A stretch of 23,824 bases of DNA from a virus: IMG/VR virus record IMGVR_UViG_3300009136_000035, positions 1-23,824 of that record, one strand, 5' to 3'. The notes beneath the pieces are model-generated. The model saw nothing but the letters and a program-made list of their open reading frames with translations. It was not told the DNA's origin and did no database searches. Position numbers and translations under genes: made by a program. Shown here one piece after another: positions 2,224 through 23,609 of this stretch (positions within the stretch are counted from its first letter, which is position 1; every line of letters begins with the position of its first letter).

Positions 2224-4833
2224 TTAGGTTAATCGTCTTGTTGTTGCGTATTGGAACGAGACTGGTATATGATAATTACTAGCGACTGGGAAGCCTGTAT
2301 TATAGGCTAGTTGGTCAAAGCTAATCCAAGCACTAGTAGGGATTGAACCGCTAATACCGCCCGGCATTGCTACCATCCCTGTATTACCTACTGAGCCAGT
2401 TTCAACTGTTCCGATATAAGGGAAGCCGTAAGACGGTCCGATAGAACCTATTGTTTTTGTAGGTAGGTTTTGTAGCTTAACAATCGTTGTGGCAGTCGTT
2501 ATGTCGAAGTTAATAAATCCGGTCACAGTTACGACACCGTTCTTAACAGTTAAGTTTAGGTTGCTATCATTTATAGTTATAGTCCCTCCACCACCTCCGT
2601 TAGCTATATCTGTTGATGGTATCGGGTAGTTATCGACATCAACTGTACTAGCGTAATCTATTGTTATATCAGTATCATACATAGTTAACGCGGCTGTATC
2701 TTCCAGTATAGCGTTATCTAGGATGATGGAATCGGTTATTGTGAAGGTTTGATCTCCAGCCTCCATGAAATTAACTGTTGTCTGCGAGGTGGACCCTCTC
2801 ATAACCCCTTGATTACCAGTTACAGTAAAGTTTGAAAACGATGAAAAAGGTGCGCCTGATGTTATAGTCCCTCTAATAAAGGCATTTTTTAAATCACCAC
2901 ACTTGTTGTTTGTTATTCTATAAAAGCCTCCGTCAATTTCAGGATCTGTAAAATTAACAAACCAAGACGCCTTTTGCTCATCATCATCTGCTGCAACAAC
3001 ATCGAGAGTTTTACTTGGTCTGAGCGATGCTGCATATGTATTATTGTCTATAGTCCAGTTGATAGCTTTAGATACTTGGACTATAGCAAGTAACACATCC
3101 TGTCTAACTTCATTATCTGAGACAATTTCATCTTTACCCCTAAGCAAAAAGCCATTTCTGACACCAGTTATAGTGTTATATTTAAAGGAATTATGCTCTG
3201 AACTTTCGTGGCTGCCAAACCCACTAGATCCAGTATTGCTTGGTAGGTCTGACCCAGTACTATCAAGGCCAGAGCCGTCCGCATGATTGCTCCACACCTT
3301 GCACCCTCTTGACGGGATTTGTCCGCTAATATCTACACCCCTACGACATTCCGAAAAGCTAGAATATAACACACTACAGTTAATTGAGTCGTTTATCTGT
3401 GCTCCGTAGCCAGTCCCAGACCCGTTAGATCCGGCCACGTTCAGATTACTAGATACTGTATTATAAGACTGAGCAATATTAACACCTTGGGTTTGCGCCT
3501 TCTTTACAGAGCAATACCTAAATTCTCCATCAACGCATCCCCGAAGCTCTGCACCTACTTTGGCCTCTTGTGTGGCGTACTCGATATTTAAATTGCTTAT
3601 TCTTGGAGTAATTCTCTGTATTCTTGTTATAGTTACCGTTTCACCCGATACATCGTAATTATCATAAAGCAGGCCCTGTAAACTCCAAGTTGTCCCGCTT
3701 ATGGATTGTATGATCGCAAGCTCGCCTTTCCTCATATCCTCCGTAGGTGTTGGGTCAAGAGGCCATAGCGCGGTAGATTTCAGTTCAATTAAATCGCCTT
3801 CAGAAAAGCCTGTCGAGGAACTAACAACAATTGATGCCGTTTGTATCTGTGCGTCAGATGCCAGTGTTGTAGACACTCCTGTCGCATCAGCTCCGACTAA
3901 AAGACCATTAAAGCCTACAGGCTTTAGTGTTGCACCGTTAGCTTGCCAATTAATCCCTACTTTACACTCTATATCTGCTGTAGTAGTGTTAAAAACCTCA
4001 TCACTATCAGACAGTACTGTAACGTTATTAGACTCTAGATATGTCATTAACGCATTAAGCCCAGCGCTGTCATCAGCTTGTCCAAGCCCCCAGTGTCTTG
4101 TTTTTGTTTCCCCTTTTACCCCCAGTTCTAAACTTAAACTTAAACTTCCATGTGCTATAATGTTGTATGTATTAGCTGTACCAGTTCCAGAGATAACATC
4201 GAATATCCCGTTAGCTCTTTCTGCTATCTGTACAGTATTACCTTCGACTAGACTGGTATCAGCAGTTGCTTCTGCTACTGTAGCGAACGGTATAATCCTG
4301 TTAGGTGCATCTACTACACTAGGATTTTCTTCTACCCACTGCCCACTATCATCGTCCATATACCATACATACGTGGTAGCCTCTGATGGCTTATACCAAC
4401 GTATACCGTCAATAACTGGGTCGGTGGGTCTAGCCTCTTGAACAAAACTTGCGCCTTGTCCAACTTGTATTAAATCCCCTATAATAGTAGATGGTCCTGT
4501 TACGTAACCGTCTTCTACTTCTTCTAGAATCATCAGTGATTGGTCATACGAGTCGTCTATATTCGATTCTTTAAATATGGAACCATCGTTATAATCATTT
4601 ACTTTTGTATCTCTTGGTACTACTCTACGGATGTGGAATTGTAGAGTATTAGCTACAGGTGCAGTTAGTTGAATCTGAGAATCATTAACCCAAGTGTAAG
4701 CTATCTGCGTTGTGTACGCGTCTGTATCTAAATATACGTAAACGTATTCACGTTTAATGAACCCGTTTACGAAATCTATGGGATACAATACTTGTGCACC
4801 ATCACTAGTGTAACTTCGTATTGTTTTAGCCAT
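2224..4833 (-). CDS. Tail fibre/spike 1 with T7 gp17-type anchor (869 aa)
   Basis: Receptor-binding protein fixed to the tail. Residues 1-110 match the T7 gp17 N-terminal virion-attachment domain (Phage_T7_tail family): MAKTIRSYTSDGAQVLYPIDF, IQLTAPVANTLQFHIRRVV, YNDGSIFKESNID. Residues about 135-172 form a WYKPSEATTYVWYMDDDSGQW segment common in fibres. Residues 182-237 are the module shared with spike 2. From about 250 (GQADDSAGLNALMTYLE) a long beta-helix with many short Asn/Ser/Thr-rich turns runs to roughly 640, followed by a distinct C-terminal region. Unlike T7 gp17 there is no obvious coiled-coil shaft. The ATG directly follows the TAA of the ejection-protein gene. A polysaccharide-degrading role is likely but unproven. 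Confidence 0.9.
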   Translation of the reverse strand: MAKTIRSYTSDGAQVLYPIDFVNGFIKREYVYVYLDTDAYTTQIAYTWVNDSQIQLTAPVANTLQFHIRRVVPRDTKVNDYNDGSIFKESNIDDSYDQSLMILEEVEDGYVTGPSTIIGDLIQVGQGASFVQEARPTDPVIDGIRWYKPSEATTYVWYMDDDSGQWVEENPSVVDAPNRIIPFATVAEATADTSLVEGNTVQIAERANGIFDVISGTGTANTYNIIAHGSLSLSLELGVKGETKTRHWGLGQADDSAGLNALMTYLESNNVTVLSDSDEVFNTTTADIECKVGINWQANGATLKPVGFNGLLVGADATGVSTTLASDAQIQTASIVVSSSTGFSEGDLIELKSTALWPLDPTPTEDMRKGELAIIQSISGTTWSLQGLLYDNYDVSGETVTITRIQRITPRISNLNIEYATQEAKVGAELRGCVDGEFRYCSVKKAQTQGVNIAQSYNTVSSNLNVAGSNGSGTGYGAQINDSINCSVLYSSFSECRRGVDISGQIPSRGCKVWSNHADGSGLDSTGSDLPSNTGSSGFGSHESSEHNSFKYNTITGVRNGFLLRGKDEIVSDNEVRQDVLLAIVQVSKAINWTIDNNTYAASLRPSKTLDVVAADDDEQKASWFVNFTDPEIDGGFYRITNNKCGDLKNAFIRGTITSGAPFSSFSNFTVTGNQGVMRGSTSQTTVNFMEAGDQTFTITDSIILDNAILEDTAALTMYDTDITIDYASTVDVDNYPIPSTDIANGGGGGTITINDSNLNLTVKNGVVTVTGFINFDITTATTIVKLQNLPTKTIGSIGPSYGFPYIGTVETGSVGNTGMVAMPGGISGSIPTSAWISFDQLAYNTGFPVASNYHIPVSFQYATTRRLT
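4123..4290 (-). repeat. Shared adapter module, copy in tail spike 1
   Basis: Encodes residues 182-237 of spike 1, including TVAEATADTS, ERANGIFDVISGTGTANTY and AHGSLSLSLEL. It is partner to 1764-1937. Downstream of the module the two proteins share no obvious sequence, as expected if the module is a swap junction. Confidence 0.85.
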
Positions 4834-7800
4834 TTATTCTTCTCCGAATATTTCTCGCAGTCCTGCTAACGTCATGTCACCTGCTGCTGTGTTTTGTAAA
4901 GGTACTAGATTAATTGCTGCATCCATCTGACCTTTCTTATCGTTTAGCCCCGAGGCATTCCAATAATCAAAAGCTGTGCTGAGTGCTGGTACTTGTCCAA
5001 GCAATTTTTGTACATCACCATCTTGCGATGCGCTGTACGAATCTAGTACTAAGTCGTATGTGTCTGGGTACATTCCAAATTGTGTTATGTACTTTGTCAC
5101 ATCCATTTGTTTTCCGTTTGGCTCTTTCCAATCACTACCTGTTATTGCTGATACACCTACGCCCAATGCTGCGAACTTTGAATATCTAACTAAACCGGCC
5201 ATAGCAGAGTTGAGCATTACGCCCGTTACTGCTTCTTTATCTGCGAACGCCATTGAGCGCCCTAGTGATTTGTTTTGTGCCACAATAGGCATTTGTCTAA
5301 ATTGCATTGCTAAAGCCATAAGTGGTTTATTCATCCACGGTGGCATCTCTCCAACTAATGTTCTTTGAATCTGTTGTGCTTCATCTCGAATCATTGCGTA
5401 CTGGAATTTCTCTCTAGCTGCTTTAGGCCATTTGTCTACATTTAATTTCTTTGGGAAACCGTTGTCGTCGAACTCAACAATATTTTTAAATACTGCTTCT
5501 AAGTCTGCGTCTTTTCCTAACGTATCTGTTAAGCCTACATCTGCCATCCTACCGTTACCCATCTTACCAGTACCGTGTTTGAAATGGTTAGCTATATCTA
5601 CTACAAAGCTTGCTTGTGTTACTCTTGTTTGGAAACGACGTACTGCGTTGTATCCACTAATTTTACCTAGTGCTCTACTTGCTGTAGCCTTGTACTTTCC
5701 GAACGTTGCTTTGTCTGCCATCCATAGCGACAGTTTCCTAGTGTTTCCTATCTTCCCTAGCTCCGCTTGGTCAAGATGTACTGACTGTCTATCTAGCCAT
5801 TCTAGGTCGTCTGTTATCTTAGAAATCGACTGTATTTCCCCCATAAGGTTGTTATTCTCTACGCTCTCACCAGCCATATCGAATATCTGTTTAACTGTCT
5901 TTTTGTTAGAAAACATGTTAATAGTAGCTCTGGTTATTACTTGACCAGTCTCTATCAACTGAGCTGTACCTAGCCCACCCATCTTAGTAAGTGCTGCTAA
6001 ATCTTTAATCTGTCGTAGTTCTTCTGTCAAACCACCTTGTGTCGGTCTACCAAACATTGAATCAATGACATCATCAAAGTACTGCTCGTGTACTTTCGTA
6101 CTTACGCCTTTATCGATACCTTCTTGAATCATGTTCTTCTTAAATACATCTATGTCTGATAGTGATGTTAGCATACCATCCGTTGACTTTGATAACCCGA
6201 CCCAACCTGCTAAACGATTACTGTACTTTGTTGCTAGTCCGACAACTTCGTCGTCTAATAAATCTAATACAGATAACCCTTCTAGTTCTGTTGTTGTATC
6301 TAAATCTTCACGGTGCTTTGCTCTACTATCTGAAGTTGGCATGTACAAATCCGGGCTGTTACCGTCTGTGTCCATTACTTCTTTCATCAAGTTCTCAGCC
6401 ATCTCTCTCGCGTCGGTCTTTGGTCGCGGGTTAGTCCCTGCGTCCATAGCTCTTTCGTAAGCTTTAGTTAGTACTCTTAATACTTTCTCTTGCCCGTGCG
6501 TGTTTATTGCACCTCGAAATTTACCATCTTGCCATACGTGAGGAATGTAGTGTTTAACTTTCTTATCTTTATGAAATCCACCGATGCTATTGTCCACCAT
6601 TTTACTGTGAGCATTAGCCATGTACTTGTCCCAATCATCGACGAAATCTAAAATCGATTTGTCTAAGTTCTGTGGCAATGGTTTTCCTTGTCTTCTCAAC
6701 TCTTGAATCATAAATACTTCACGGTTGAATTGTTTGACTACTGGGCTGTCTGCCCCTGCAAATTGTTGCGCCCCCATCTTCCCTACGGAACCTTTACCTT
6801 TACTTACTGCGTAAGCGTCCATAGCTCGCGTGTAGTTAGGTATTATCTGCATAGCCGACTCAAGATACTCTGCTTGTCTAATAACTCCACCAGTAGCCTT
6901 TCTGCGGATGTTTCCACCGAATCCTCTACCGACTTCTGTAACATTAGCCCCGAAGAACTGCATAGAGGTTAGTTTACCCTCTTGGAACTTGGTCCCGATG
7001 TCTTTAGTCCATACAGCCGCCAAGCGACCTATCTGGTCTAAAGCTCCTCTAGGCGTCATAGCAAGGTTTAAAATCTTCTGCCCACCAGTACGTACCCAGT
7101 TAGATAAACCGTCACCTACCTTCTTAATGGAGGCTGCTGATTCACTATTTACTGCTGCATCTACCCTAGCGTTAATATCAGAAAGTTCTTCTGGTGTTTT
7201 ATCTTTAGGTGGTTCGATAGTTGTATCCAGATAATCTAAGTCCTCTTCTTTCAAGGCTGTCTCTAAAGGGTCTGGTTTTGTTGGTGTACCGTCTACTGTG
7301 GATGCGGCCTTGTTTAACTTGGCTCGCATCTTAGCTTCTTTAGCTATTGTATCCGATGCCCTAATTACTTCTACAACTAAATCTATGTCCTTTCGCATTA
7401 CCATTCTTTCGATGGTTGCTGCTTTGTCTCTTAGTAGTGCTTCTTTAACTTTTACTATGCGCTGGTTTTGTGCCCGGAATTCTGCCTTACCTTTTATTTC
7501 CTGTACACCTAGTTTCTTTGCAATTCCTTTTAACTTGTCGTTAAGGGTTGTAATGTTTTCTAGTGACGGGTTTTTATAAGCTTCGATAGTCTCCGACTTG
7601 TTGTACGCACGTGGTAATAAGTCTTGCTCTAAGTTGTCAGCTACTAATACGGTTTCTCCATCTCTGAACTCACCAGTATCATGCTTGTCTCTTACAGAAC
7701 CTACTTCAAATTCTTTTACTTCTCCTACACGTTGCACATCTGAAGATACTTCTACGCGGCCTCTACCATCTCGTAACTCTCGTAGTCTTTTAGAATACTC

Positions 7801-10143
7801 AGTTGTTCGTGGTATCAGACCTTCTTTCTTCAATTGGGCTGCAATTTCTGGTGCAGTCATTTTAACTGTTTTGCCGAATGTCTTTGTTGAGTCAGCAAAC
7901 TTTTCTAGTGTTCCTAGTTCAAGTTGTTCTAACCTCGCGGATAGTAAACCATTCATCTTTTCCATTAACGTACTGAACTCTTCATCACCACGTTTAGCAG
8001 CCATGTTGTTTAGTTCTACTACATCTTTTATAAATGAAACTTCTTTAGGTAACACTCGGGATAAACCTGCTGTATCATCACTCGAACTTATTCGGTTTAG
8101 TATGTCTGTATTCTGTTCAAAGAAATCCGCTCTACTTACTGGAAGTATTGTACTATCTTTAAATACATCTAAGTTCTCTAGAACGTTCAAGTATTCATTT
8201 AGTACGTGAGTAGGGTTAGCCACTCTACCTTCTAGTAAATCACTCATAGCGTTCCGCTTACTGAAAGATTTTTGTTTGAAAGTCATTTCCTGAATAGCCT
8301 TATTTACACTCTTAGGTACTTTACCTTTTGGGTACTTACCAACGATGTGTAAAATAGTAGCGTTCATTTTGTTAGCTAAAGCTCTCTCTGCTGGACCAAG
8401 GTTTTTATTATTTAGTCCTATCTGTTGGTTCATTAAATAGCGTAGTGCAGACTGTCCTTTTTGTAGCTTAGGGAATGCTTCTAGTGCAGCTTGAGATGCT
8501 GCGTTGAATCCCTGTGGTGTCACCTCTGTTATTTCATTGAATGGTGTGAAACGCTGTCCACGTTCTACTTCAAAAACATTGAGTGCATCTACTACGTTCT
8601 CTTTCGACTTAGCACTAGTTTCTATATCTGTTGCTTTGTCTTTTATTTCTTGTAACTCAGGTGTGGCTGCTACTGGTTCTCCACCCGCTTTTATACGAGC
8701 TTCTTCTTCCACTAAGGACTCTAACATACGCGCTTCTGCTTCTCTAGAATCTCGTAATGCTGTACGTGTCTTCGCGCCTTTCCATACTGGTTTAATCACA
8801 CCCTCAACTAGACCCCCAAGACCGAGACCAAACGAGGAATCCATCATAGTGTCTAAGTAGAAATCTTTAGCGGTGTATTGGTGGTCTGCTGCAAGTCTTG
8901 GTAGGTTAATGAAAGAACCCTCTACTGCTCCTGCTACTGCCCACGTTGCCATCTTGTCAGCATTTTGGAAAACTCTAGATGCTCTCCATGCGCGTGTACC
9001 TTGGACCTCTGCGTTTATCACACTAGATATACCAGCGGCTTTTCTAGCGCCCTGTGCAATCTGTGCACCTTTACCAACTATCCCAGCGCCTGTAAGCGCA
9101 AGGGGGTCTGTTAGTACGGCTACGCCACCTGCAAGTAGTTGTTCGTACCACTCTGCTTTATCGAAAATAGTTTTATTTTGTATATCTTCGAGTAGTTGTT
9201 CTTTTTTCATTAGAGCACCCGCTACAGAACCTGTATCCCGTTCCTCTAAGATAGCAGGGTGGAATGCCGGTGGTACATCTGCTAGTAAATCTTTGTCACT
9301 GATGTCTACGCTATTATCTCCAAACTTCTTAGCTCTCCACATGTTACCCATGTCACCTGAGTTAGACACAAAATTAAACATCTTAAAAGATGCACTCAAT
9401 GTGTCCATAAAGGATGGGTCTGCTTCTGGTTTAATCGCGACATGTAGGTGGTTGTTTCTAACTGCCCTATTGTACTCTTCTCGTCTAGCCGGGTCAGATA
9501 ACATAACATCGTATGCGTTTCTTAGTGGGCTACCGTCATTGTCGAAAGAAGCTTGTCTATCCCATTGGTGTAACTGGTGACGAAACCTTGAAATTAATTC
9601 TGGGTCTCTATACAGCTCTACCATAGCAGTATCTAGTTCTTCCTGTGTAGCATCGCCTGTCGCGAATGCTGTATTAACTTTTGAAAATTGTTCCTGTAAT
9701 CTACTGACTTCTTCGAACTGTTCTCTGCTCAGTGGGTCTTTCGATTCTCCCGCTTGATATTGTACAAACGGGGAGTAAAATTCTTTATACTGGTCGTGTA
9801 ACTTTGGGTCTGGGTGTTTACCAAACTTTGTGAAGTAACCAGAGAAACCTTGGTCTAGCTGAACTAAACCAATGTTAATCTTCTCACCGTTAACTTCTCT
9901 GAATACATCACCAAGAGTTCTACCAAATTTATCTGTACCGCTCTTGGTAACTTCTGTTGGTGAACCTTCTGGCAATACACGTTTTCCAAATTCACTAGCC
10001 TGTTTTCCCCTAGAGGTGTTTTGGCTCTCGATTGGTGATACTGATTCTGGCGTGTTAATACCCTGTAGTCTTACTGTCTCTACAGTATTATCTGTACGGA
10101 ACTTTCCAGTATCTCCGTCTATCATCTCTTGAAGTGTACTCAT
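4834..10143 (-). CDS. Giant ejection/internal virion protein with N-terminal SNase-like domain (1769 aa)
   Basis: By order (third after tail tubular protein B, directly before the tail fibre) and size, the counterpart of T7 gp16 (1318 aa), which is ejected into the cell to form the DNA-entry channel. Residues 5-110 look like a staphylococcal-nuclease fold: IDGDT (D11), VRLQGINTPES (R25, T31, E33) and DKFGRTLGDVF (R75) match the SNase positions D21, R35, T41, E43 and R87; D40 is Asn here (N30). The later INIGLVQLDQGFS also fits the family. A glycine/alanine-rich hydrophobic segment at 338-363 and another near the C-terminus could be membrane-associated. Long helical, Glu/Lys-rich stretches fill the middle. 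I see no lytic transglycosylase motif, unlike T7 gp16. The start follows AGGAGACATA. Confidence 0.85.
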   Translation of the reverse strand: MSTLQEMIDGDTGKFRTDNTVETVRLQGINTPESVSPIESQNTSRGKQASEFGKRVLPEGSPTEVTKSGTDKFGRTLGDVFREVNGEKINIGLVQLDQGFSGYFTKFGKHPDPKLHDQYKEFYSPFVQYQAGESKDPLSREQFEEVSRLQEQFSKVNTAFATGDATQEELDTAMVELYRDPELISRFRHQLHQWDRQASFDNDGSPLRNAYDVMLSDPARREEYNRAVRNNHLHVAIKPEADPSFMDTLSASFKMFNFVSNSGDMGNMWRAKKFGDNSVDISDKDLLADVPPAFHPAILEERDTGSVAGALMKKEQLLEDIQNKTIFDKAEWYEQLLAGGVAVLTDPLALTGAGIVGKGAQIAQGARKAAGISSVINAEVQGTRAWRASRVFQNADKMATWAVAGAVEGSFINLPRLAADHQYTAKDFYLDTMMDSSFGLGLGGLVEGVIKPVWKGAKTRTALRDSREAEARMLESLVEEEARIKAGGEPVAATPELQEIKDKATDIETSAKSKENVVDALNVFEVERGQRFTPFNEITEVTPQGFNAASQAALEAFPKLQKGQSALRYLMNQQIGLNNKNLGPAERALANKMNATILHIVGKYPKGKVPKSVNKAIQEMTFKQKSFSKRNAMSDLLEGRVANPTHVLNEYLNVLENLDVFKDSTILPVSRADFFEQNTDILNRISSSDDTAGLSRVLPKEVSFIKDVVELNNMAAKRGDEEFSTLMEKMNGLLSARLEQLELGTLEKFADSTKTFGKTVKMTAPEIAAQLKKEGLIPRTTEYSKRLRELRDGRGRVEVSSDVQRVGEVKEFEVGSVRDKHDTGEFRDGETVLVADNLEQDLLPRAYNKSETIEAYKNPSLENITTLNDKLKGIAKKLGVQEIKGKAEFRAQNQRIVKVKEALLRDKAATIERMVMRKDIDLVVEVIRASDTIAKEAKMRAKLNKAASTVDGTPTKPDPLETALKEEDLDYLDTTIEPPKDKTPEELSDINARVDAAVNSESAASIKKVGDGLSNWVRTGGQKILNLAMTPRGALDQIGRLAAVWTKDIGTKFQEGKLTSMQFFGANVTEVGRGFGGNIRRKATGGVIRQAEYLESAMQIIPNYTRAMDAYAVSKGKGSVGKMGAQQFAGADSPVVKQFNREVFMIQELRRQGKPLPQNLDKSILDFVDDWDKYMANAHSKMVDNSIGGFHKDKKVKHYIPHVWQDGKFRGAINTHGQEKVLRVLTKAYERAMDAGTNPRPKTDAREMAENLMKEVMDTDGNSPDLYMPTSDSRAKHREDLDTTTELEGLSVLDLLDDEVVGLATKYSNRLAGWVGLSKSTDGMLTSLSDIDVFKKNMIQEGIDKGVSTKVHEQYFDDVIDSMFGRPTQGGLTEELRQIKDLAALTKMGGLGTAQLIETGQVITRATINMFSNKKTVKQIFDMAGESVENNNLMGEIQSISKITDDLEWLDRQSVHLDQAELGKIGNTRKLSLWMADKATFGKYKATASRALGKISGYNAVRRFQTRVTQASFVVDIANHFKHGTGKMGNGRMADVGLTDTLGKDADLEAVFKNIVEFDDNGFPKKLNVDKWPKAAREKFQYAMIRDEAQQIQRTLVGEMPPWMNKPLMALAMQFRQMPIVAQNKSLGRSMAFADKEAVTGVMLNSAMAGLVRYSKFAALGVGVSAITGSDWKEPNGKQMDVTKYITQFGMYPDTYDLVLDSYSASQDGDVQKLLGQVPALSTAFDYWNASGLNDKKGQMDAAINLVPLQNTAAGDMTLAGLREIFGEE

Positions 10144-10159
10144 TATGTCTCCTATTGAG

Positions 10160-12418
10160 TTACAATTTTGGGTTGTTAATGGCGTCTTGGCCTATCCACG
10201 ACCTTTCAATTGCTTGTGCTTTAATGGCTTCTTCTAGCTTTTCCTGTTCTCTTTGTACGTCAACCATCTGCGCCCACTGTTCTAATTCATCAAACGAAAT
10301 TAATGTAGGTTGTCTAAACGATATTGACTTTAGTAGAACTCCGTTAGGGTCCATTTCCATTGTCCAATTACCGCGCAGTCTACCTAGTTTTTTTACGTGT
10401 GTTCTGCCCTGTGGTCCATCTTCTGGTGCAACGCCTGCTCTTGATAATACAGCAGCCATCATCCCTTGTTTCTCTGCGAATGCAATAATCTTTTCAAACT
10501 TAACGCCTGACTTAGATATTTTATCCAGTGAGTCTCCATTCCAAATTACGTTACCTTGTACTGTTGTCGTCTGTGAATCAACTGCATCAAGTAAGTATTG
10601 CCTAGCACCTGTGTGGTCTCCGTTGTTGTGTATCAAACCACGCTTATATGTTTCCATAAAGTCTGTGACTGAACTCACTGATGGGAATTGACCAGTCCTA
10701 CTCATCACTATGTTTGATACATAGTTTTGTTTCGTTTGGTGGTCTTCCTTATTCAGCGGCCATTGTGGGAAGTTCCCAACATCTTCAGAATTCTCATGGA
10801 ATCTTTTCACAGACTCGTTAATCATTTGAGATGTGTTACCTTGTCGAATACCTGCTGCGACTTCTAAGAATTCATCATAGTTCTTTTGTCCAATAACTTT
10901 CTGAAACTTCTTATTCTTCAGGAATAATTCAGCGTTAGCTAGTTGGCGTAAAGAATCAGGTGTTGGTATACCATCCTCATCAAATGTATTTTCAAACCCG
11001 CTTATAAACTGAGTAGCTACACGTTTGACCATAGGTGATGTTACATCCCGGTTCTCGTAGAAGTTAGACACAAACTTAGCTGCGGTTGGGTTATTTAGTA
11101 TCTCAGCGAATGCTTCACTTTGTGTTAGCTCAGGGTTACCTGTTATAGAGGCTAGTTGATTAACTATGTATGCATCAGCAGAATCCCCCGCTTCTTTTTC
11201 TGTATCTAAACCGATTTCGCCTTGGGCTAGTGCTCTATCCTGTGGGTCAGTAATTCCCCACGTGTCTCTCATAGCAAGTAACTTATCTGCCTTAGCCTGT
11301 TTAGTGGCTCCCGAACGTAACGCTGTGGCGCGCCCCTTTGCTACTCTCAAACGAGCATCTGCAATAATCTTGTCACCCCTATCTGTCCCGCTTACACGTT
11401 TTTCCATATCGTCGATGCGAGTATCTAGGGTGTCATATGCTGCACTAGCGTCTGCAATTGTTTCAGCTTCGATAGCGAATATTTCACCGTTAGATAAAAT
11501 AGCACCAACTTGCTGACCGAAGTCTGTGTCGTATGCACTAATCGCGGTATCTCTTTTAGCAAGTGTCCCAGCGTTCTGTCTACTTTCCCAGCCTGATGCT
11601 AGGGCAGACTTGTACATATTAATGTTACCTTGCTTAAGGGAGTTATCTAGCTCGTCGTTCAGTATCCCGTCATAACTTTCTATTGACTGCCCTTCACGTT
11701 TTAGTGAACGATTAAACATACCAACAATGTTGTTTGCAATTGCTGCCGCTTCCTCTGGGGATGATACTTTACCACTATCGACGTTAAACTCATCCATTGA
11801 CTGCCGGATTAGTCTACGAGAGGTTTCGGCTTGTTGCATCTGATTCCATGCGTAGCGTGCTTCAAATTGTTTTGCTGCTAACTTTGCGCTTTGGTCTTGC
11901 CAAGCTCCTGCAATTATTGATTGTGTTTCTGCGTCACCTTTATATTTGTCTAGTACAACATCTAAGCCATCTTTCAATCTGATTTTATATTCTTCAGGTG
12001 TATGTCCTGCATACTCGTCTACCTTAACAGCTTCTTCAAGGTAGTGTTGTTGAATAGCATTCTCTGCTGCTTGTTGTTGTGCTGCTCGGTATTCGACGTT
12101 CTCCCCATATACCCACTTTTCCCAACCGGTGCGTTTTTTCTCTTTAAGGGTGTTTACAATACCGGAGTTTATACCTTGTTCTATCTTTGCATCTAATGCT
12201 CGCTGTGCATTAATGTTGGTAGCTTCTTCTTCTAATCCACTAGCCAAAGCTGCACCTAGAGCACTACCAACTTTTTGTACACCAGTATCTAAACTAGTTG
12301 TAGTTTTCTTTGCACTTAAGTTTTGTGACCTAGCCTGTTGCTGAATCACTGGGGGACTAATAATACCCTCGTTTGCGTCACCCGTTGCTGACCTTTCTGG
12401 TAATCCAAATTGTGACAT
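10160..12418 (-). CDS. Internal core/ejection protein, T7 gp15-like (752 aa)
   Basis: Length and position correspond to T7 gp15 (747 aa), a ring component of the internal core that is ejected with DNA. The sequence is almost wholly helical, polar and rich in Ala, Gln, Glu and Lys (for example around AAQQQAAENAIQQHYLEEA), with no catalytic motif that I recognise. I place the start at the ATG giving MSQFGLPERS, preceded by GGGGAGGA. A GTG five codons upstream overlaps the previous gene and has poorer support. The gene lies two bases after the stop of the gp14-like gene. The family assignment is by synteny and size more than by sequence. Confidence 0.75.
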   Translation of the reverse strand: MSQFGLPERSATGDANEGIISPPVIQQQARSQNLSAKKTTTSLDTGVQKVGSALGAALASGLEEEATNINAQRALDAKIEQGINSGIVNTLKEKKRTGWEKWVYGENVEYRAAQQQAAENAIQQHYLEEAVKVDEYAGHTPEEYKIRLKDGLDVVLDKYKGDAETQSIIAGAWQDQSAKLAAKQFEARYAWNQMQQAETSRRLIRQSMDEFNVDSGKVSSPEEAAAIANNIVGMFNRSLKREGQSIESYDGILNDELDNSLKQGNINMYKSALASGWESRQNAGTLAKRDTAISAYDTDFGQQVGAILSNGEIFAIEAETIADASAAYDTLDTRIDDMEKRVSGTDRGDKIIADARLRVAKGRATALRSGATKQAKADKLLAMRDTWGITDPQDRALAQGEIGLDTEKEAGDSADAYIVNQLASITGNPELTQSEAFAEILNNPTAAKFVSNFYENRDVTSPMVKRVATQFISGFENTFDEDGIPTPDSLRQLANAELFLKNKKFQKVIGQKNYDEFLEVAAGIRQGNTSQMINESVKRFHENSEDVGNFPQWPLNKEDHQTKQNYVSNIVMSRTGQFPSVSSVTDFMETYKRGLIHNNGDHTGARQYLLDAVDSQTTTVQGNVIWNGDSLDKISKSGVKFEKIIAFAEKQGMMAAVLSRAGVAPEDGPQGRTHVKKLGRLRGNWTMEMDPNGVLLKSISFRQPTLISFDELEQWAQMVDVQREQEKLEEAIKAQAIERSWIGQDAINNPKL

Positions 12419-12420
12419 GG

Positions 12421-13014
12421 TTATCCTCCCCACAATGGTAGTGAATCATCTAGAATTTGCTGCTGTCCCGATGCCTCTGTACTTAACGGGTCTGAACTAG
12501 CTGTCGATTCTTTGCTGTCTAAAGCTTCACTTATTTTAAAATCTTTCCTTTCGAATGAACTAAATGCGTTTAGTAAATCGCCCATTACGTTGGGTGAGGA
12601 ATCAGTTACACTTAGCAAACTAGCTTGTGCACTATTAACCCTAGCAAGTTCTGATTCAATTCGTTGGTCAGCTTGTCTTTTATTCCGAGACATAGCATAA
12701 GTTTCGTTTGCTTCCGTTTGGTAAACCACGTCCTCAACTGACTGTCCTTGGACCCCTGCTGCGGCTGCGTTTACTTTTGCGAATGCTTCCGCTTGGTCTT
12801 GACTCATTTGAAGCTGAGTATTGGATAAAATCTTATCTTGCTTTATTGCGGAGATGTTTTTCTCTGCTGTATGTTTTCGCTCTGCGGCAGCAAGGCGTGC
12901 TGCTTGCTCCGCGAACGATTGATTGTATGCTGCTTTAGTCTGCGCGTTCTCACCAGTGAAGGCAAGCTGCGCTGCACTTAAACCAGACTGCACAGCTTGT
13001 GCGTATATTGACAT
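12421..13014 (-). CDS. Internal virion protein, T7 gp14-like (197 aa)
   Basis: Same length (T7 gp14 is 196 aa) and same position, after tail tubular protein B. It begins MSIYAQAVQSGLSAAQLAFTG and continues as an Ala/Gln/Glu-rich helical region to about residue 140, then a disordered acidic Ser-rich tail ending LPLWGG. T7 gp14 is ejected first and is thought to reach the outer membrane. The ATG overlaps the previous stop as TAATG, indicating translational coupling. Assignment is mainly by context. Confidence 0.75.
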   Translation of the reverse strand: MSIYAQAVQSGLSAAQLAFTGENAQTKAAYNQSFAEQAARLAAAERKHTAEKNISAIKQDKILSNTQLQMSQDQAEAFAKVNAAAAGVQGQSVEDVVYQTEANETYAMSRNKRQADQRIESELARVNSAQASLLSVTDSSPNVMGDLLNAFSSFERKDFKISEALDSKESTASSDPLSTEASGQQQILDDSLPLWGG

Positions 13015-23219: not shown

Positions 23220-23609
23220 TTACTTCACCTTCTTTTTACGTGCTCTCGCTTCCCTAGCTTTTTTATTTCTTGCTAGTCTTTGTTGGTCTGGCGTCTGGTG
23301 GTCTGGGTGTATTAAGTTTATACGAGGTTTACTATGATGGTCTAAGTATTTACCTAAACCAATTAAGTACCTGTCTGTACTCACACCTTTATGACCACGC
23401 TGTGCTACTCGTTTAACTTTACCTTCTGCCCCATTACAGGACACGTGCAAAGCTGCGCGTATGTAACCAGTTTTATGGTCGTGGTCTAGGCATGGTCCAT
23501 CGTATTTCTTAAACGACTCCCCGCACAAGGCGCAACGTCGAGACTGCCTTTCCACTAACTGCTGTAGCACTCCGGCTACTTCTGTTTTCTTTAGTTGTCG
23601 TACCGTCAT
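23220..23609 (-). CDS. Endonuclease VII-type Holliday-junction resolvase (129 aa)
   Basis: HNH/beta-beta-alpha-metal nuclease of the recombination endonuclease VII family (T4 gp49 type). It resolves branched DNA before packaging and may help degrade host DNA. Seen: CALC (C26, C29), the catalytic LDHDHKTG (D42, H43, H45), and LHVSCNGAEGKVKR (H55, C58, N59), which aligns with T4 LCNLCNAAEGQMK. The third zinc ligand is His rather than Cys. The C-terminal 25 residues are highly basic (ARNKKAREARARKKKVK), likely DNA-binding. The ATG has GAGG upstream and lies within the previous gene. It stands in for T7 gp3, which is an unrelated fold. Confidence 0.9.
   Translation of the reverse strand: MTVRQLKKTEVAGVLQQLVERQSRRCALCGESFKKYDGPCLDHDHKTGYIRAALHVSCNGAEGKVKRVAQRGHKGVSTDRYLIGLGKYLDHHSKPRINLIHPDHQTPDQQRLARNKKAREARARKKKVK

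Follow-up and report, generated by a model that had tools for sequence, protein, structure and literature searches.

A predicted staphylococcal nuclease-family domain at the N-terminus of gp16-type ejection proteins in a clade of T7-like phages

Results

Ejection-protein genes of the window

The stretch of DNA analysed (the window) is an entire IMG/VR record of 23,824 bases. Its minus strand carries, at 4834..10143, the gene of a gp16-type ejection protein of 1769 aa with a predicted staphylococcal nuclease (SNase) domain at the N-terminus, called SNase-gp16 here. The reading frame starts with the ATG at 10143 and is preceded by an AGGAG ribosome-binding site read from the sequence (10149..10153, minus strand). 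The adjacent upstream gene (10160..12433, minus strand) was assigned by position to a gp15-type ejection protein of 757 aa; no enzymatic domain was detected in it, and neither Pfam nor PHROGs returned a peptidoglycan-hydrolase match. A gp14-type ejection protein of 197 aa is encoded at 12421..13014 (minus strand; phrog_805, E=4.6e-7), and its match to PF24072 (T7_gp14) was slightly under the Pfam cutoff (E=1.1e-5). The stop codon of the gp15-type gene and the start of the SNase-gp16 gene are only 16 nt apart, as they are in the related locus L001, so there is no lysozyme gene between the two. Transcriptionally upstream of SNase-gp16 lie the genes for the gp15-type and gp14-type proteins, nozzle, adaptor, capsid, scaffold, portal and a T7-type RNA polymerase, and the gp14, gp12, gp11, capsid, scaffold, portal and RNA polymerase genes follow the T7 order.

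Three further observations concern the neighbouring genes. The gene at 2224-4833 (minus strand) encodes a tail fibre whose N-terminus is of the T7 fibre type; it matches the K1-lyase Rider domain weakly and also matches the tail spike family phrog_14558. An Endonuclease VII-type gene (23220-23609, minus strand; phrog_423, E=8e-36) lies transcriptionally upstream of the RNA polymerase gene. At one related locus (L002:5142-7251) the gp15-type gene seemingly consists of two ORFs (360 + 291 aa), possibly due to a sequencing error.

The assignment to the gp16 type, proposed in a preliminary description of this DNA, rests on gene order and on homology along most of the length of the protein. In the PHROG search residues 204-1760 matched phrog_342, 'internal virion protein with endolysin domain', with E=9e-73, and the entire protein matched phrog_37474 with E=0. 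The internal virion protein of Alteromonas phage R8W is 46% identical to the 1769-aa protein, and the gene follows the gp14- and gp15-type genes as in T7. The assignment was upheld on both counts.

The N-terminal domain

Residues 1-105 (9829..10143, minus strand) were predicted with good confidence as a beta-barrel plus helix of the SNase family. The Pfam profile PF00565 scored 28.9 bits (E=1.6e-6) on the whole 1769-aa protein and 33.6 bits (E=5.7e-8) on the isolated domain, both above the curated cutoff of 21 bits. Staphylococcal nuclease chains in the PDB were matched by the single sequence at E about 1e-6 (phmmer) and by the family profile at E about 1e-8. The domain was modelled with AlphaFold2 on an alignment of 25 relatives, and within residues 1-100 the ten-residue blocks had pLDDT values of about 75-91. 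Foldseek compared this model to the PDB with a best E of 1.2e-7, probability 1.00 and TM about 0.6; all 50 of the matches listed were SNases. A chance motif can be ruled out by the Pfam E values, the PDB sequence matches and the fold match. By profile and model, the N-terminus is thus a true SNase-family domain, as the preliminary description had supposed, and the predicted fold was not a different one; residues 1-114 correspond to 9802-10143.

The model is weak (pLDDT < 50) at residues 106-136, the expected place of the last helix of SNase. Residues 106-135 (9739..9828, minus strand) hold a conserved DPxxHxxYKxYYS stretch in the place of this helix, and its D112, P113, H116 and Y119 are invariant in 13 relatives.

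Active-site residues and selection

The residues named in the preliminary description (D11, R25, T31, E33 and R75, with N30 for D40) were found where it had placed them. D9-G10-D11 (10111..10119, minus strand) aligns with D19-G20-D21 of SNase at the Ca2+ site, and D9 and D11 are invariant in 25 aligned SNases as well as in 16/16 gp16-type rows of the alignment. R25 (10069..10071, minus strand), E33 (10045..10047, minus strand) and R75 (9919..9921, minus strand) correspond to R35, the general base E43 and R87, and are invariant in the alignments. The window thus has the catalytic R35, E43 and R87 and the metal ligand D21. The equivalents of D19, D21, T22, R35, E43 and R87 are invariant in 16/16 gp16-type rows, even though these domains diverge down to about 38% identity to the window; of the 105 positions 14 are invariant, and the four named ones would all be included in these by chance with a probability of about 2e-4. 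R8W was left out of this alignment, and has the same invariant residues with Asn for D40. Loss of the catalytic residues was looked for and not encountered in any relative examined.

The metal ligand D40, which belongs to the classical active enzyme and not to every family member, is absent from the window, where N30-T31 (10051..10056, minus strand) aligns with D40-T41. Thirteen of the 16 gp16-type rows have Asn at this position, two (L052 and L080) have Asp and one (L055) has Gln; the T41 position of L055 is Val. No other active site in the group has diverged as far as that of L055 (2844-3299), which keeps D21, R35, E43 and R87. Since free-standing phage SNases also have Asn at this position, the substitution is no bar to membership in the family; full activity of a D40N domain remains uncertain.

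Substitution rates in residues 1-105 gave dN/dS of 0.15 between the window and L001 and 0.09 between R8W and H4/4. These are Nei-Gojobori counts, and synonymous sites are near saturation across much of the remaining protein, so the values are rough. As far as such counts can tell, the domain is under purifying selection.

The pattern at the active site could also be explained by a non-catalytic leftover, an OB-fold grip that secures the leading or the last-packaged end of the DNA at the core or steers DNA into the tunnel. Asn or Gln at D40 in 14 of the 16 members and Val at T41 in one would be compatible with such a grip, as would the hazard of a nuclease within a packed virion. In phage PhiM1 DNA coils in grooves between core enzymatic domains, and T7 gp15-gp16 bind DNA, to judge from a title cited in PMC11784390. 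However, the equivalents of R35, E43 and R87 are invariant amid widely varying neighbours, a general base at E43 is not expected to be necessary in an OB-fold that only binds, and two members have the full Asp at D40. A binding role is possible, and we regard it as improbable.

Distribution of the fusion

Viral contigs and phage records were searched for the SNase-gp16 fusion, and it was present in L001, L002, L048, L050, L051, L052, L054, L055 and L057, further in L073, L075, L079, L080 and L045, and in the Alteromonas phages R8W (L043) and H4/4 (L044, also L053). Alignment of the whole protein to viral contigs gave only five loci, and region alignments were more productive. Judged by these matches, the fusion is a clade-wide trait in a group of autographivirids. 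In the protein of L079 (6712-12399) about 55 residues precede the SNase domain as an N-terminal extension, and DADT stands in the place of DGDT. Separately, the giant phage family phrog_8809 (2317 aa), of unknown function, has an SNase-like stretch at 1103-1210.

In a scan of genome contigs the matches were cellular thermonucleases, and no giant gp16-type protein was present in the 32 frames inspected. Nor was a fusion present in the tblastn matches from Mycobacterium phage Adler, a Manatee Spring virus and a Microcystis phage, where the SNases are separate short genes. Among cellular-type proteins, the nearest relatives found are short thermonucleases, chiefly from Clostridia, whose N-terminal extensions look like those of secreted or lipoprotein enzymes and which have Asp at position 40; many have a TPESVHPDExxNTxxGxxASxFTK-like signature (core ESVHPDExxNTxxG).

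The resemblance of these relatives to secreted nucleases that act outside cells would suit an enzyme of the end of infection, in which surplus gp16 released by lysis into Ca2+-rich seawater degrades host DNA that traps progeny, while capsids protect the phage DNA. The logic of a Ca2+ switch would suit it as well. A free gene would suffice for this task, and free-standing SNases do exist in other phages, so that the clade-wide fusion to an ejection protein would be left unexplained; we consider this explanation very unlikely.

Lysozyme in the Foturvirus subclade

In Foturviruses a lysozyme stands ahead of the SNase domain in the ejection protein; it scored slightly under the Pfam cutoff for PF00959. 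In L045 a single ORF of 1967 aa encodes lysozyme and SNase-gp16 in frame. The lysozyme ORF of H4/4 and R8W, of 160-161 aa, ends in GTA AAA AAG TAG, with a classical A_AAA_AAG slip site at the lysozyme stop (L044:11957-11968; L043:11948-11959). The H4/4 record annotates a -1 frameshift that joins lysozyme to the SNase-gp16 frame, and no ATG, GTG or TTG start was seen in the SNase frame of H4/4 between the slip site and the SNase domain. It is probable that in both phages the lysozyme is joined to SNase-gp16 by a -1 slip at A_AAA_AAG. Slipping there would yield a lysozyme-SNase-gp16 fusion alongside lysozyme in free form.

A tree built on the C-terminal part places the three lysozyme carriers in a single clade (100/100) nested among SNase-only proteins; L059/L060, Vibrio K385 and JSF7, which have neither domain, fall outside or are unresolved. 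The rooting is weak, as are some forks. Given the nesting, gain of a lysozyme is the simpler reading, and replacement of a lost lysozyme by SNase was rejected as the simplest one, subject to the weak rooting.

Pfam and PHROGs detected no lysozyme or transglycosylase in gp14, gp15 or gp16 of the window, and a hidden T7-like enzyme of either kind was rejected on this ground. The contrast with T7 drawn in the preliminary description thus stood: no match to a lytic transglycosylase was obtained at the N-terminus of the window protein, and this domain was likewise not seen in several other gp16 relatives. No peptidoglycan hydrolase was detected by Pfam or PHROG among the proteins scanned around L051/L069. 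Among distant gp16 relatives, the N-terminus of PGT2 looked transglycosylase-like by eye, and none was recognised by eye in the others.

Discussion

The SNase family and the gp16-type ejection protein are each known already. PHROGs lists the fused family phrog_37474 as of unknown function, and an SNase is not named in the records publicly available for R8W and H4/4, which give the products only as 'internal virion protein' and 'endolysin'. The R8W paper treats the lysozyme as a lysis endolysin, and a word search of it gave no mention of a nuclease (PMC8228385). No report of the fusion was found among the papers searched on SNase or thermonuclease together with ejection or internal virion proteins; most subscription papers lay outside this search. 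Where an enzyme is known at the front of a podovirus ejection protein, it is one that cuts peptidoglycan. The sequences suggest that an enzyme able to cut DNA or RNA, an activity that is inferred, sits at the very front of the entry machine, in the place of the cell-wall-cutting enzyme of T7.

The window protein resembles T7 gp16, internal virion protein D, in its gene position after the gp14- and gp15-type genes, in homology over residues 204-1760 and in having an enzyme-family domain at the N-terminus. It differs in that this domain is a transglycosylase in T7 and an SNase in the window, and in that searches of the window's gp14, gp15 and gp16 turned up no peptidoglycan hydrolase. H4/4 gp39/gp40 and R8W gp43/gp44 (phrog_37474), from Alteromonas Foturviruses, share 46-49% identity with it over the full length and have the SNase at the start of the gp16 part, but carry in front the lysozyme (PF00959, just under cutoff) that ends in the -1 slip site. 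With staphylococcal nuclease and the secreted thermonucleases (PF00565) the window domain shares the fold and D21, R35, E43 and R87 in order and spacing, whereas it is fused to a virion protein rather than secreted as a free enzyme, has Asn for D40 and has a conserved gp16-specific stretch in the region of the last helix. MuF toxins (PMC5576092) and polyvalent proteins (PMC5512222) are similar as enzyme domains fused to virion proteins and delivered upon infection; the window protein has no MuF domain, and its carrier is a T7-like ejection protein. Word searches of these two papers found no mention of SNase.

The fold, family and position of the domain, the conservation of its catalytic residues, purifying selection and clade-wide retention are shown by the comparisons above. 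From these we favour, with some reserve, a working Ca2+-gated nuclease displayed outside the DNA tunnel in the periplasm; its catalytic activity, its gating by Ca2+ and its periplasmic display are inferred. SNase needs millimolar Ca2+. SNase-gp16 would be synthesised in the cytoplasm of the producing cell, where Ca2+ is low, and the nuclease would accordingly be silent where it is made. It would then be packed with the virion core and ejected before the DNA. In T7, the transglycosylase lies within residues 1-156 of gp16, which form the wings of the periplasmic gp15/gp16 tunnel (PMC8954989). By analogy the N-terminal part would become a wing on the exterior of the tunnel and would thereby be exposed to the Ca2+ available in the periplasm of the host. 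A tunnel of the gp15/gp16 type is held to shield incoming DNA against nucleases (PMC11440229), so the incoming genome, being inside it, would be protected from the SNase. Exposed targets could be the DNA of competing phages, DNA outside the tunnel or other periplasmic nucleic acid; the target is a guess.

Delivery during entry could alternatively serve takeover in the cytoplasm, the injected nuclease breaking host nucleic acid early in the manner of other virion-delivered enzymes. T7 gp16 as a whole reaches the cytoplasm (PMC11784390), and the MuF toxins and polyvalent proteins show that effectors are packaged in virions (PMC5576092, PMC5512222). However, it is the C-terminal part of T7 gp16 that enters the cytoplasm while residues 1-156 remain periplasmic (PMC8954989), and a classical SNase would, by established knowledge, be starved of Ca2+ there. 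Such a factor is in our judgement unlikely.

A periplasmic nuclease is favoured by the invariance of the D21, R35, E43 and R87 equivalents despite divergence and by the likeness of the nearest cellular-type relatives to secreted thermonucleases. The main doubts are the Asn at D40, which should weaken metal binding in most members, and the risk that an active nuclease poses to the packaged genome beside it, the DNA of phage PhiM1 being one that runs between enzymatic domains of the core. The Gln-Val of L055 in place of Asp-Thr and the weak model at residues 106-136 also count against it. The fuller account, that in this clade of T7-like phages, probably marine, a Ca2+-gated nuclease outside the injection tunnel clears competing periplasmic nucleic acid at entry while its own genome is tunnel-shielded, can be put forward only tentatively. 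A conserved nuclease family at this place would mean that the ejectosome is able to bring in a nucleic-acid-cutting activity as entry takes place. It would raise testable questions of superinfection, self-protection and control by Ca2+, and these can be tested now, since two cultured phages, R8W and H4/4, carry the fusion.
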